Of a stretch of 26,559 nucleotides of DNA, positions 447 to 17,606 are shown one piece after another. How positions within the stretch are numbered: position 1 is the first letter of the stretch; every line of letters begins with the position of its first letter. This DNA is from Plicaturopsis crispa FD-325 SS-3 (Eukaryota > Basidiomycota > Agaricomycetes > Amylocorticiales > Amylocorticiaceae). The position numbers and the translations under genes were made by a program. The stretch is from assembly GCA_000827205.1 (NCBI GenBank), contig KN832558.1, forward strand, positions 93,817 through 120,375. Direction: 5' to 3'. Under the pieces are notes generated by a model. The model was given only the letters and a program-made list of their open reading frames with translations. It had not been told where the DNA came from and ran no database searches.

Positions 447-531
447 TTGGACAGAGGGTGCAAGCGGGCACCGTTATATTCTGTCACCTAGCGCATCAAT
501 TTTCTCGGCAAACGGATGAGAATCGAGATAC

Positions 532-741
532 TGTAGGGTTCGGTAAGCGGCTACACGAGGATTCCGCGCGGCGCGACGCATCTTGCTTTGTCTCGAAACC
601 TATATAGTCCTCGCTGTAACTCTTTGTACATTAGCTCACTCCTGATCCCACTTATGACCAGAGGATACGACGCAAGTTACGTTTCCATTATACGGCCCTA
701 CCTCGAGAGGCTACACTGATCACAATATACGTCCCCCTACA
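532..741 (+). repeat. 5' LTR (210 bp)
   Basis: Identical to 1821-2030. It begins TGTAGGG and ends CCCTACA and is preceded by the target duplication ATAC at 528-531. A TATA-like stretch at 601-607 followed by CT-rich sequence fits a U3 promoter. Confidence 0.93.
601..607 (+). promoter_or_regulatory. TATA-like box in LTR
   Basis: TATATAG lies 70 bp into the LTR, with a pyrimidine-rich stretch and CTCACTCC downstream, suitable for initiating the element transcript inside the LTR. The same site occurs in the 3' LTR. Confidence 0.5.
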
Positions 742-744
742 CAT

Positions 745-761
745 TGGAGCCCAACGCTCGG
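745..761 (+). other. Candidate tRNA primer-binding site
   Basis: Three bases after the 5' LTR the sequence reads TGGAGCCCAACGCTCGG. TGG would pair with the CCA end of a tRNA. I cannot assign the tRNA species by eye, so the call rests on position and the TGG start. Confidence 0.5.
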
Positions 762-869
762 TGAACACATAAGTCCTTCACCCTGCCTTTCAACACCACT
801 CCACCCCATCTACACGCCACTCACCCACCCAACTTTTCACCCGTATCCGCGCTAGCCAAGTTTCTCGTC

Positions 870-921
870 TCGCATCTCGTCTCGTCTCGTTCGCCATCGC
901 CTCGCCTCGCCTCGCCTCGCG
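870..921. repeat. CTCGT / CGCCT microsatellite before the ORF
   Basis: Short tandem units related to CTCGT give way to four CGCCT-type units just upstream of the element ORF start at 957. It is probably slippage-prone 5' untranslated sequence of the retroelement. Confidence 0.7.
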
Positions 922-956
922 TCAAGTTCTCGTGTTCCCCATCGCGCCTATCTCGT

Positions 957-1778
957 ATGTTTTCCATTCGTATTGCCCATCGCTTTCGTCGCCCGTTTCG
1001 TTCGTCCAGGATTAGGAAGAGGAGAGAAGGAGGAGACGGTTGGCAGCCGCAGGGAGTCGGAGAGGTGCCGCGCGCAAGAGAGGAGTTGGTAAAGGTTGTC
1101 GAGGTCCGTCGAGGCGATCATACGCAGCGCATATGGTTTTCGCGTCGCACGTTACGCGCCATTTTCGAACGCTCGAAGAACGGAGCCCCGCTCAACGTCG
1201 GTAACGAGTCCGACACGCGCGCGATCGAACGACTACTCGGCGAGCGCTATATTCACGCCCTTCACGCCCACTTGACGCGCCTCACTCTCGGATTCACACC
1301 GTCCGCATCGTTCCCCGCCCACGAACTCTTTCAGAACCTACCGGAGCGTCTCGACGCCGCCGTCCAACAAGCCCGCGCCGATGCGTTGTACCGCTACGAA
1401 GAGCTCGTTGCCGCGACGTACCAGTCCATCCCGCTCGGCTTACGCGCTAAGCTTGTCGCTCAAGATTCGGAGGTATCGCGCTTTTCGCTCGACGGCTCGC
1501 CCGCAGGCTTGGAATATGATATTCGCACAGACGCCTCGTTCCACGCTACTCCGCCGCCAACACTTCCCAGTCTTCCGCCGCCGCTTCCGAGCCTCTCGCA
1601 ACCACGTTCGACGTCTACGCCATCGACGCACGTACCCCTCACATCATTCTTTGTGCCGTCTTTGTTGCCGCCGCCGCCGCCGCGTTCATCTTCGTCGCAT
1701 CGTTCGCTATCACCATCGTCCGTCGCGCCTGTCTCGCTCGTGAATTGTTTAGGTCTTTCGCAGTCAGATTTAGGCTAG
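957..1778 (+). CDS. Retroelement-borne ORF of unknown function
   Basis: A 273-residue ORF filling most of the internal region of the LTR element. I do not recognise it. Residues 1-25 are very Arg-rich. The middle (about 50-200) is a plausible globular, helix-rich domain with strong GC bias at third codon positions, which supports real coding. I see no CCHC knuckle, protease DTG/DSG or polymerase motif. The C-terminal part (about 200-260) becomes Pro/Ser low complexity, typical of reading out of frame. From about 1541 the frame one base back looks more protein-like: it has a hydrophobic segment (about 1643-1720) followed by Arg residues, and ends at TAG 1823-1825, inside the first bases of the 3' LTR. 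So a frameshift, a programmed slip or an unrecognised intron may exist. It has no obvious introns, as expected after passage through RNA. It could be a captured host gene or a derived gag. Confidence 0.6.
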   Translation: MFSIRIAHRFRRPFRSSRIRKRREGGDGWQPQGVGEVPRAREELVKVVEVRRGDHTQRIWFSRRTLRAIFERSKNGAPLNVGNESDTRAIERLLGERYIHALHAHLTRLTLGFTPSASFPAHELFQNLPERLDAAVQQARADALYRYEELVAATYQSIPLGLRAKLVAQDSEVSRFSLDGSPAGLEYDIRTDASFHATPPPTLPSLPPPLPSLSQPRSTSTPSTHVPLTSFFVPSLLPPPPPRSSSSHRSLSPSSVAPVSLVNCLGLSQSDLG

Positions 1779-1804
1779 AGGATCAACCAGGGATGGTTGA
1801 TATT

Positions 1805-1820
1805 CAAAGTGGGGAGCGGA
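1805..1820 (+). other. Polypurine tract
   Basis: A purine-rich run (AAAGTGGGGAGCGGA at its core) directly abuts the 3' LTR at 1821, the expected site for plus-strand priming in an LTR retrotransposon. Confidence 0.75.
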
Positions 1821-2030
1821 TGTAGGGTTCGGTAAGCGGCTACACGAGGATTCCGCGCGGCGCGACGCATCTTGCTTTGTCTCGAAACCTATATAGTCCT
1901 CGCTGTAACTCTTTGTACATTAGCTCACTCCTGATCCCACTTATGACCAGAGGATACGACGCAAGTTACGTTTCCATTATACGGCCCTACCTCGAGAGGC
2001 TACACTGATCACAATATACGTCCCCCTACA
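1821..2030 (+). repeat. 3' LTR (210 bp)
   Basis: Base-for-base identical to 532-741 and followed by the target duplication ATAC at 2031-2034. The first bases also supply a stop codon (1823-1825) for the alternative frame of the element ORF. Confidence 0.93.
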
Positions 2031-2255
2031 ATACATAATGCCACCAGGGCGGCAGCGAAATTGAATATCGCGCCGCGCCTTATGTTCCGCAAACGGCGGG
2101 TTGAGCAGCATAGAGCTAACCGTACACGACTCGTACACGGTGGTGCTTATCGGGGATTGTTGGGAAGGGTAGGGCAAAGCACGGACTCAAATCCCGTTGG
2201 ATCTTGAGAGGAATACGTTTTACCCATGTCAACATACAGTATAAATACTCCCACA

Positions 2256-5200
2256 TTATATATCGTCCTCCGGACCATCCTCGATCATGGCAGCATAGTC
2301 CTCGTAACTTGCAAACGTCGGCAGCGCCTTCAGCTTCTTGCGCCGCTCTTTCTTTTCGTCGCCACGTTTTCGTTTTTTGTCGTCGGCAAAGCCAGTCCAC
2401 TCTCCCTCGGCGTCCGAACCGTCAAACTCGATGAGACCCTCCGGTCCGCGCTCGAGCGCGTCGAGGGGCACTAGGTCCTCGTTATCGGAGTCTTCCGCGA
2501 GGGACAGCGCGTCCGATGCGTCGTCCTCGTCGTCCTCGTCTTCGGCAGCGTCGTCGCCGTCCTGTTCATCAGCGTCCATGTCGTCCGAATCGGAGTCGTA
2601 GTCGAGGTCAGAAGGGATGGGATCGCTGTCGTCGCTGGCGTCCAGCAGGTCGTCATCACCCGCATCTCTGGGCATTGTAGCTTTCATTGCCTTTGAAAAT
2701 CAAACGCTTAGCAAGAAGCGTGTTTTTTTGGGGAAACTTGACTCACCTTCCAAACGGCGGCTTCCTCAAGATCGCTGTCCTCGTCCTCGTCACCTTCCGC
2801 ATCCCCGGCGTGCGCGTCAGAATCCACATCGTCGTCGTCACCCTCCGGTTCACCGTCCGGGCCACTCTCATCTTCATCCGAGTCATCACCCTTCTCCTTT
2901 CGCCTATCTGCTTTCTTCGCCCGCGCTTTCTCCTTTTCACTCCTTCGCGAGAAGAACCTATGGAAGAAAACCTACACTCGCCGCATTCAACACTCGCCCC
3001 TGAACACTCAACTGACGCAACGGAAAACGCACCTGATCAACGGGCACTTCCCCTTCCTTCATCTTCCCCCACCACTTCTCGTCGTTCACCATGCCCTCGG
3101 CAGCACCCACATCACCCTTGACCAGCTTCACCGCACCAGCCCCCGCATCTGCAGCAGCGGGCTGCATGGCGCTCGCGCCCTTCGGCCGCGGCTTTTTCGG
3201 GTTCTTGTACACGAACCGGTCGAGGAAGTGCGACAGCGTATTCAGGGAGAGGTCCGCCGATGCCGTTAACGGCTCGCCGGCAAGCAGCTGGGCAGCGTGC
3301 AGAGAGATGGCGGGATGGTAGTGTTGGGTAAGCGGTGTCTAGGGAAAGGAATGAGTGGTATAGATGGGGTAGAATTGGACATGCACTCACGAGTTCCCAT
3401 AGCGGAGATGCGGAAGCGTGCGCATACTGCGGGTCTCGCTTTCGGGGATCATACGTCTCTCCTTCAGAAGAGGACGGCTCCGAGTTGAGCATCGCTCGCA
3501 ATCCTGGGACGGTGTTAAAGATCTGCGCAACACATACCGTTAACGTTTCCCGAATACAAGCACATGAACAAATAGAACCGACCTCTCCGAGCAGATAGAG
3601 GCCACCGGCGACAAACTCTGTCGCGCCACCCCCGCCCGCTGCGAGTACCTGTACGAACCGCCGCACAAACGCATGCACGCGTACGACGTCTGGGTCTGCC
3701 TTCAGACTTTTAAACAGCAGGTTCAGGTACATGGCCTGTTTGGAGGATGAGGCAAGACGCGGGTCGTGTAGCGACGCGTAGAGCGTGCGGAAATATCGGT
3801 CTGTGATCGACTTGGACGCTGATGCGGACGACGTCGAGGGTGACGGAGCCGCGGGCGGGAGCGTGAGAGAGGCGCATATGTGCTGTATGAGGACCAATGC
3901 TTGGAGAGAGATGTTGAATGTCGAGGTGTGTGTTATCAGGAAAAGCGTGTCGATGTGCTTGTTGAGTCTATATCATTGTCAGCAGCCGTTGTCAGTGATG
4001 AATAGTACAATAGAGCGCACCCCGCGTCAGCGGCATCCATCTTAGCAAACGGAAGCGCACGGTTCACGCCTGTGAGAACAGCGGAAATCAACTTGGAGTG
4101 CACACTTTCCACCTCGGCAAACCCAGCCTCCCCCTTCACCTCCCTCGCCTTCGCCTTTCCCTTCTTCTCGCCCTTCTTCCCCTTGCCGTCCTTCTTGTCC
4201 TGCTTCCCCTTCCCCTTGCGATCGCCAGGCTTTCCTTCATCTTCTGGCACATCCTCAGGAGCTTCCTCATCACCCTTATCCTCCCCCAAAAGCTCCTTGA
4301 AGATCTCAAAGTAAACGTTGATGAGCTGGACGGCAACCTCCCGATCCGCAGGCGTCAGCGTGATCTGGTTGAACGTGATCGCGGCATAGTAGCGCGCGTG
4401 TGCATTTCCCTCACGCTTGGGCTCGGGTTTCGACTTCTGCTTCGGCGCGTCGTCGGTGAAGCGGATGTGTTTGTTCGTTGCAGGGACAGAGGCGCTGGAT
4501 GGGGCTGGTGCGGGCGGTCGCAGGGCGAGGGAGACTATCTCGCGCACTATGACGGATTTCATGGAGGGGTGCGTTTGGAGGAGGTGTAGGAGGTGGTACG
4601 ATGCGCGGGAGCATATGGTTTTCTCCGTGTCGCCCTGGACAAAATATCAGCGGGAGGATTAGTCTACTCAGTGAGGAGACCTACAAGTTTGTTGACGAGT
4701 AGGCGTAGCAGATTTTGTTCTTGCTCTGGCTTGTCGCGGAGCAGAGTGAATATAAGAGTTAGTGCTTGTGTCCGGACGTACGCAAGGGGATCCAGCGACA
4801 ATGTCTGTGAATAGAATCAGTATGACATCGGACAATATTAGATATGGGACGCACCTCGAGTATCTGAAGCACCGAGAAGAAGTATTTTTTGAGCCAGTCT
4901 TCAAAATACCACAGCACGAGATGTTCATCTGTGACAGCGGGGTGCGATAATGGCTGATCTCGGAAATATCTGCGATCATTTTCAGTATTCATGTCGCTTA
5001 GACTTCACTCATACTCACCGCAATTTCCGATCAGGTGCACCCCCGCCTATCCACCAGTCCACCACACACCGGAGGGCCTTCAAACTTTCGTCCCTGCCAC
5101 CTTTCCCTTTTCCGCGCTCTGCCATGGCCTTGAGGGTTTCCAGCGCCTTCACGTTATGCACCGGACTGCTCTGCACGAGGAGTGTCAGAGCGCTGAGTCT

Positions 5201-16038: not shown

Positions 16039-17606
16039 TCAGTTCAGCTCGTCGAGCTCGAAGAGGCCGCGGACCAGGAGGTGGACGGCGGCTTGAATGT
16101 CGCGCTGAGTGACAGGAGACGCGCCGGAAGCGGGGCTCGCTGCCGCCGCACCACCCGCACCGCTAGTTGCAGCCTGAGGGGGAGAGCTCGATTGTGCGCC
16201 ACCGGCAGCAGCTGCAGGGTCCGAAGCAGCAGCAGCGGGGTCCGCGGCACCGGCACCAGTAGCCCCAGTACCAGCGCTACCCGCAGCCTGAGAGGCGGAG
16301 GCACCACCTGCGGCAGCAGCGGGAGAGGCTGCACCAGCACCACCGGCAGCACCTGCTCCACCAGCACCCGCACCACTAGCACCGGCGGCACCTGCACCTT
16401 GGGCACCGGCAGCACCCGCACCTTGCGCGCCGGCAGCACCCGCACCACCAGCAGCTCCTGCGCCACCGGCAGCAGCACCCTTGGCACCTTTGGCACCCTT
16501 AGCGCCCTTCTTGTGACGTGCCTCGAACGCGGAGAGCTCGTGGCGCATGATCTCGTGAATGGCCTGATCGCACAAGTATCGTCAGCTTCATCGGGGCGTA
16601 ACTTGAATGGTATAGATGCATACCTGCTCAATACCAGCACTGCGCACCTTCAGGTCACGGCGCTGACCGGACGCAGAAGCGGCAGGAGACGAAGAGTTGC
16701 CTGCGGAAGCACCAGCGGCCGGGCTTGCGGACGCTCCGCCCGCCGCACCACCAGCGCTTGCCGGGGAACTTGATGAACCATTCGACGCGCCCGTAGCACC
16801 GCCAGCCGCGCCCGCTGCTCCTGTGCTACCAGCGGCAGAGCCGTCGGTTGCACCTGCAGCAGGGCTACCAGCCGCACCACCAGCACCGGCGCCAGATGCA
16901 GCAGCGCCTGAGGATGCGGACCCAGCTGCACCACTGGTTCCAGTGGCACCGCTTGCGCCTGCACCGCCAGCAGCGCCACTGTCAGCAGCGCCACCTGCGG
17001 CTCCGGCAGCGGCTGGAGAGGATGACCCGGCTGCACCGGTAGCACCAGTTGCACCGCTTGCACCTGCACCTCCAGCGGCGCCACCAGCCGCACCGGTGGC
17101 ACCACCAGCACCGGCCGCGCCAGTCGCTCCTGCAGCGCCAGCCGTGCCTGCAGCACCACCAGCGCCAGCGGCACCACCCGCGCCTGCAGCACCGGCCGCG
17201 CCCTTGGCGCCCTTAGCACCTTTGGCACCCTTCTTGTGGCGTGCCTCGAGCTCTTCGAGTTCACGGAGGCCGAGGAGCCCAGTAACGCTCTGAAAAATAA
17301 ACAACGGTGAGCTTCGACTTCTACTCCGTCGAGTCAAGGTGTACATACGTCGGTAAGTCCACCGAGGGCGCCGCCGAGGCCGCCTTGCTGCTGGCTGGCG
17401 CCCTGCTGGGCTGCCTGCTGGCGGACCTCGACGTCACGGCGGAAGTCCGGAGATGCCTCAGCAGACTTCAGACTGCAAGGGAAAGAAGCGGTCAGACGAA
17501 ATCCGTTCAAGAGACCAGAATGCAGTACTCACGGGGCAGCGAGGGAGGGCGCGAGGGCGCTGAGCGCGACGGTGGCGGCGAGGAAGGTGTTCTTGGGGTA
17601 AAACAT
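16039..17606 (-). CDS. Secreted Gly/Ala-rich collagen- or silk-like modular protein
   Basis: Four exons (17606-17533, 17472-17349, 17289-16624, 16563-16039) give 462 residues. Residues 1-24 form a signal peptide (FLAATVALSALAPSLAA). A dibasic FRRD at 35-38 is a Kex2-type site. Then come a short Gln/Gly segment and an amphipathic helix ending in EARHKKGAKGAKGAKGAA (about 81-97). A Gly/Ala tract follows: first about 17 uninterrupted Gly-Ala-X triplets, then irregular, with Ser/Pro/Thr. The module repeats: QRRDLKV (275-281), a helix, and again EARHKKGAKGAKGAKGAA (302-318). Its Gly/Ala tract contains the near-repeats GAGAAGAQ, GAGAAGAQ, GAGAAGAS. The protein ends with TQRDIQAAVHLLVRG and an acidic helix. 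Few Pro occur in the triplets, so collagen triple helix is uncertain; silk-like stacking is the alternative. It is likely a wall or extracellular structural protein. No named family is recognised. Confidence 0.75.

Follow-up and report, generated by a model that had tools for sequence, protein, structure and literature searches.

A complete non-autonomous LTR retrotransposon, 1499 bp in length, occupies positions 532 to 2030 of a 26,559-nucleotide stretch of the genome of Plicaturopsis crispa (C5:93817-120375; "the window" hereafter means this whole stretch). The mini element has two LTRs, a primer site that matches tRNA-Lys, copies elsewhere in the genome that carry their own target-site duplications, and a block at the 3′ end of its internal region that is common to one larger element. 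We place the probability at roughly three in four that it is a helper-dependent LTR retrotransposon whose enzymes come from an element of the Ty3/gypsy type. Much of the anatomy had been proposed in a preliminary description of the same DNA, which the analysis partly supports and which proved largely right; a 273-aa ORF and a mosaic structure come on top of it.

The features of the mini element are collected in Table 1. As had been claimed, the two LTRs are without a single difference, their ends form a 7-bp inversion, the same four bases stand on both sides as a target-site duplication, and a tract of the polypurine type adjoins the 3′ LTR. This tract is purine-rich and is interrupted by one T and one C. 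The reported absence of a polymerase was also borne out, and the mini element has no integrase of its own either. Neither the ORF nor one frame of the internal region, read with stops as X, gave a Pfam match, and an internal region of 1079 bp leaves no room for pol. An Rfam search for tRNA- or 5S-like sequence gave no match inside 532-2030 up to E 5, and the two matches listed fall outside the element.

Table 1. Features of the mini element and its borders (positions in the window)
Feature	Position	Strand	Basis
Left target-site duplication, ATAC	528..531	.	sequence reading
5′ LTR, 210 bp, TGTAGGG...CCCTACA; TATATAG box at 601	532..741	+	repeat comparison
Primer binding site TGGAGCCCAACGC, complementary over 13 nt to the 3′ terminus of tRNA-Lys with its CCA	745..757	+	
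273-aa ORF, without known domain	957..1778	+	translation, profile searches
328-bp block with zero differences between the C5 and C3 copies, flanks diverged (mosaic)	1339..1666	+	
43-bp block, 42/43 common with the C3 candidate helper; a hairpin (about 1778-1805) precedes the purine tract	1778..1820	+	
Polypurine-type tract AAAGTGGGGAGCGGA, adjoining the 3′ LTR	1806..1820	+	
3′ LTR, same as 5′ LTR	1821..2030	+	repeat comparison
Right target-site duplication, ATAC	2031..2034	.	sequence reading

Several other features lie in the surrounding DNA. Upstream of the element there are two interleaved pairs of exact repeats, one of 25 bp (78-102 and 144-168) and one of 30 bp (101-130 and 221-250). Between these and the element is a hairpin (337-389) with 26-nt arms that are 85% complementary, a 1-nt loop, and an Rfam match far below threshold. 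On the other side, a minus-strand ORF at 2256-2687 ends about 225 bp beyond the element and is the probable last exon of the gene whose minus-strand ORF at 3115-3897 carries a CBF/Mak21 domain. Farther away, a minus-strand ORF at 16591-17346 has a weak, below-cut-off match to collagen repeats.

The preliminary description had suggested that copies be counted in the genome, and a search of the 33.2 Mb in 49 contigs, whose repeat counts are lower bounds, gave 10 matches with the whole element and 11 with the LTR. These include four full-length copies, namely the window copy on C5, C3:1479549-1481028, C21:136363-138560, and, on the minus strand, C17:215592-217167. Isolated LTRs occur at three further places, one each on C4, C19, and C1. 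The whole-element search has one match left over, which corresponds to the 3′ terminus of the C3 candidate helper. Exact 4-bp duplications flank five of the seven insertions (ATAC, CCAT, GAGC, ACAG, and, on C4, GTGG). The isolated LTR on C19 has ACGC/ACGT, which agree at three of four bases, and no target duplication could be defined in the flanks of the one on C1. LTR copies confined to this single place, with no target duplication at other copies, had been named as the outcome that would speak against the element, whereas both the copies and their duplications are present at other loci. The structure is beyond chance, because three further full-length loci show it too, each flanked by an exact 4-bp duplication of its own. 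Two of the copies, on C21 and C17, hold internal runs of 1373 and 748 N, respectively, with similar borders at window-equivalent positions of about 1005-1010 and 1670-1673. Targeting of insertions to the vicinity of tRNA genes was considered and rejected, as 0 tRNA was found in the 10 stretches scanned.

Most of the internal region is taken up by the ORF, which judged from its pattern of substitutions is probably a protein gene under some purifying selection. Its counterpart in the C3 copy is 272 aa long owing to one in-frame 3-bp deletion, and the two differ by 48 substitutions in 39 codons, 17 of which are silent and 22 amino-acid-changing. When substitutions are placed at random outside the identical block, a mean of 31.9 changing codons is expected (P = 0.0006 for as few as the 22 seen), and the same randomization gives P = 0.055 for as many silent codons as observed. 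Estimates of dN/dS are 0.40 (NG86), 0.35 (LWL85), and 0.54 (YN00). The signal of constraint sits in the 5′ part, with 14 changing and 15 silent codons, and the 3′ part, with 8 and 2, is without it. The readable 3′ ends of the gapped copies are free of stops (84% over 37 aa for C21 and 75% over 28 aa for C17).

A rather unlikely alternative is that the ORF is spurious and the mini element is a non-coding, TRIM-like element. The lack of a domain would suit this reading, as would the chance of 0.19 that random placement leaves no stop. Codon use also lends it some weight, given that the coding frame reaches only about a neutral level and that other frames score higher in the last 36 codons. Over the whole ORF the coding frame is the best of six, and across the first 127 codons its score is equalled by that of an antisense frame. 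However, the deficit of amino-acid changes argues against a spurious ORF, as do base shuffles of the internal region, only 1 in 2000 of which yields an ORF of at least 273 aa, the first rank of the frame among the six, and the length of 1499 bp, which exceeds the 1000-bp limit of TRIMs.

The ORF could also encode a diverged capsid protein, in which case the mini element would be a gag-only, semi-autonomous element like TR-GAG. An ORF that is open in two copies and short of changing codons is consistent with this, and helices occur in the middle of an AlphaFold model, albeit a poor one made from the single sequence (pLDDT 44). Nevertheless, we regard a gag-only element as unlikely: searches for gag homology in Pfam to E 10, NCBIfam, PDB sequences (nothing better than E 1.3), and the genome itself gave no convincing match beyond the ORF's own family, and the gag of the candidate helper, which reads N, offers no comparison. 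Seven pattern matches in the viral contigs scanned included no relative. Capture of a host gene was likewise not supported. In the genome, all seven matches of the internal DNA belong to the copies or to the helper, and the five matches of the ORF belong to the copies except for a weak one elsewhere at E 0.18.

The best candidate for the helper is an element of about 9.0 kb on C3 (C3:1143274-1152307, minus strand). Of its 9034 bp, 7729 are N, and these cover its primer site, gag, and most of pol. Its 3′ LTR is 625 bp long, the readable 459 bp of the 5′ LTR show one 1-bp indel, and the 4-bp duplication ATTG flanks it on both sides. The candidate helper and the mini element have in common the first 9 LTR nucleotides, TGTAGGGTT, with a patchy likeness over ~30 bp, and also the 43 bp immediately before the 3′ LTR, where hairpin and purine tract agree at 42 positions. 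Past about the first 31 bp the helper LTR departs from that of the mini element, and upstream of the 43-bp block the two sequences are unlike. The hairpin of the block in the mini element has a folding energy of -12.5 kcal/mol for a 48-nt piece, folded without a shuffle control. At up to three mismatches, its 25-nt core is confined to the helper and the four copies of the mini element (reversed control, 0). A pattern made of the tract and the LTR start finds the same five loci plus one match with three mismatches at C2:2979848, which was rejected as a sixth family locus on account of its unrelated surroundings. Elsewhere in the genome, the helper LTR has a single further match, at C1:3945318 (76% over part). 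Conservation of the 43-bp block would be expected of two elements that rely on a common RT/RNase H and integrase, although it does not prove that they do.

The last 55 codons of the helper match the C-terminal part of a Pol ORF located at C5:325394, with 39% identity over 54 aa (E 1.7e-4). The locus around the latter has an integrase zinc-binding Pfam match above its cut-off, together with RNase H, zf-H2C2, and Tf2-1-like SH3 matches below theirs. Hence the Pol tail of the helper appears to be one resembling Ty3/gypsy, an assignment from a short stretch, since Pfam gives no match for these 55 aa by themselves and the remainder reads N. Apart from itself, the helper tail matched only the ORF tail on C5 (~C5:325394). 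Two points in the preliminary description can be judged from these data. An active helper had been predicted, and a candidate now exists, but its activity cannot be affirmed for an element that reads N over 7.7 kb. A search for an autonomous element with the same LTR ends and primer site had also been suggested; in the candidate the first 9 LTR nucleotides are the same, and the primer site reads N.

The primer site of the mini element, which had been called plausible, begins 3 nt past the 5′ LTR and is a perfect complement of the tRNA-Lys 3′ end plus CCA over 13 nt. A pattern for tRNA 3′ arms, the last bases of which are complementary to the primer site, gave 115 matches at up to two mismatches, compared to 93 for the reversed control, and all five exact matches are identical in reading. 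With introns allowed, ARAGORN identifies these five loci as tRNA-Lys genes, four with CTT and one with TTT, whereas a search without introns finds no tRNA at them. Under a laxer setting, two of the loci are in addition assigned tRNAs that overlap in antisense. The ends that ARAGORN gives for the four CTT genes are one base further out than the tRNA ends of the pattern, and the 13-nt match assumes tRNA ends as given for the TTT gene. These assumed ends are supported by the locus C5:315927, where the complement to tRNA-Lys follows an LTR-like end, CTACA, and extends to 18 nt. The primer-site 13-mer occurs five times in the whole genome (three times for the reversed control), in the four mini copies and at C5:315927, and a 23-nt pattern around the primer site is found genome-wide only in the four mini copies at up to three mismatches.

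This locus on C5 raises the prospect that the enzymes come from some other Ty3/gypsy-type element, for example around C5:315.9-325.6 kb, rather than from the element on C3. Such a source would be in keeping with the 18-nt primer site and the CTACA end, and with an RT match that lies some 7 kb further downstream in the same orientation. However, the hairpin core is absent there at up to three mismatches, no 3′ LTR is present in the 2 kb read, likeness to the mini element DNA is confined to the primer site in the two end pieces read, and the joining of primer site and RT into one element is an assumption. We therefore consider this source improbable. To the left of the primer site at C5:315927, the sequence enters N. 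At least 42 RT matches are present in the genome; other helpers were sought by genome-wide patterns, and the flanks of one RT match were read in part for LTRs, so that a different helper is excluded only to the extent that these patterns would reveal it.

Given the C3 element as the best helper candidate for the supply of enzymes, we infer that the mini element is transcribed, packaged, and mobilized in trans by a series of steps. Pol II transcription would start in the LTR by way of the TATATAG box, and the resulting RNA would enter particles of the Ty3/gypsy-type element. Reverse transcription could then be primed by tRNA-Lys at the primer site, with the purine tract providing the start of plus-strand synthesis. 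Finally, the helper integrase would recognize the TGTAGGGTT...ACA ends, giving rise to insertion with a 4-bp duplication.

The copies are also mosaic in structure. The internal regions of the C5 and C3 copies differ at 66 of 1079 positions, none of which falls within the 328-bp block, and the longest difference-free run in 20,000 permutations was 194. Protein constraint does not account for this identity because the silent sites are identical too. In the C17 copy, the LTRs and leader are 96-99% like those of C3 and C21, compared to 88% for its 3′ piece, which includes 60 bp of LTR. Template switching between co-packaged RNAs would explain both mosaics, and gene conversion or assembly collapse is a possible alternative source. 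An assembly artefact in which collapsed repeats produced both the identical LTRs and the 328-bp block is very improbable: two of the four copies are gapped and their post-gap matches start at 1670 and 1673, near the block border at 1666, but the four loci differ from one another both in their flanks and in their exact 4-bp duplications, and the 210-bp LTRs adjoin unlike flanks.

Identity of the LTRs had been taken to mean a recent insertion. The absence of differences over 210 bp fits such an event, but it bounds the age weakly. At the fungal rate of 1.05e-9 substitutions per site per year given in PMC5689174, an LTR pair of this length should gain one difference every 2.3 million years, and the age has a 95% bound of ~6.8 million years. 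Pooling the LTR pairs of the four copies (~813 bp) yields a single difference; it lies in C21, is read as a 1-bp insertion, and is scored by the alignment as one mismatch plus one gap. With substitutions taken as zero, the bound on the average age is ~1.8 million years.

A more far-reaching and speculative extension of the helper-dependent reading would make the mini element a satellite retrotransposon that has its own selected, non-gag gene and a transferable 43-bp cassette for one gypsy lineage, with template switching reshuffling LTRs and ORF between subfamilies.

There are several known systems with which the mini element can be compared. TRIMs are defined as shorter than 1000 bp (PMC6934838, PMC10886601), and their terminal repeats measure 100-250 bp (PMC6934838). 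The mini element is like them in its LTR length, its primer site and polypurine tract, its lack of a polymerase, and its probable dependence on an autonomous partner, and unlike them in its total length, its 1079-bp internal region, and its 273-aa ORF. TRIMs code for no mobilization protein, whereas the ORF of the mini element is under some constraint. Because of the excess length and the ORF, it is not filed as a classical TRIM. According to PMC6934838, some TRIMs have a proposed partner, and for several others none could be found. LTR elements that have an ORF and lack pol are also represented by TR-GAG and other semi-autonomous elements (PMC10552921, PMC9744471), from which the mini element differs in that no gag similarity was detected in its ORF.

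The wheat elements Wilma, Sabrina, and WHAM have, as described in PMC9744471, little in common beyond the primer site, the nine nucleotides that open the LTR, and a GC-rich motif in which a TATA box may lie. The situation here is similar in that few motifs are common to the partners, among them the first nine LTR nucleotides, and in the possible TATA box. It differs in the common 43-bp hairpin and purine tract and in the unreadable primer site of the helper, and the mini element is much smaller and far lower in copy number.

Among fungi, TRIM and LARD elements are known from three of five Boletales genomes (PMC5689174). For Helenus of rust fungi, Copia-9_PGr is a likely partner, as the internal sequence of Helenus resembles a Copia element (PMC10886601). 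Both Helenus and the mini element are small fungal non-autonomous LTR elements whose likeness to a candidate partner is internal rather than LTR-wide. However, the mini element has a 4-bp and not a 5-bp duplication, the Pol tail of its candidate partner is gypsy-like and not Copia, and, unlike Helenus and TRIMp3, it gave no tRNA- or 5S-like match. A literature search that was not keyed to the host species returned no earlier report of this family. Overall, what the mini element and its candidate partner have in common comes down to the LTR start and the 43-bp hairpin and purine tract. The genome is compact, and seven mini insertions and one partner copy were detected in it (plus one 76% match to the partner LTR). 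The cis-signals that allow the borrowing of enzymes thereby become testable, and a probably coding, mosaic case is added to the fungal miniature LTR elements.
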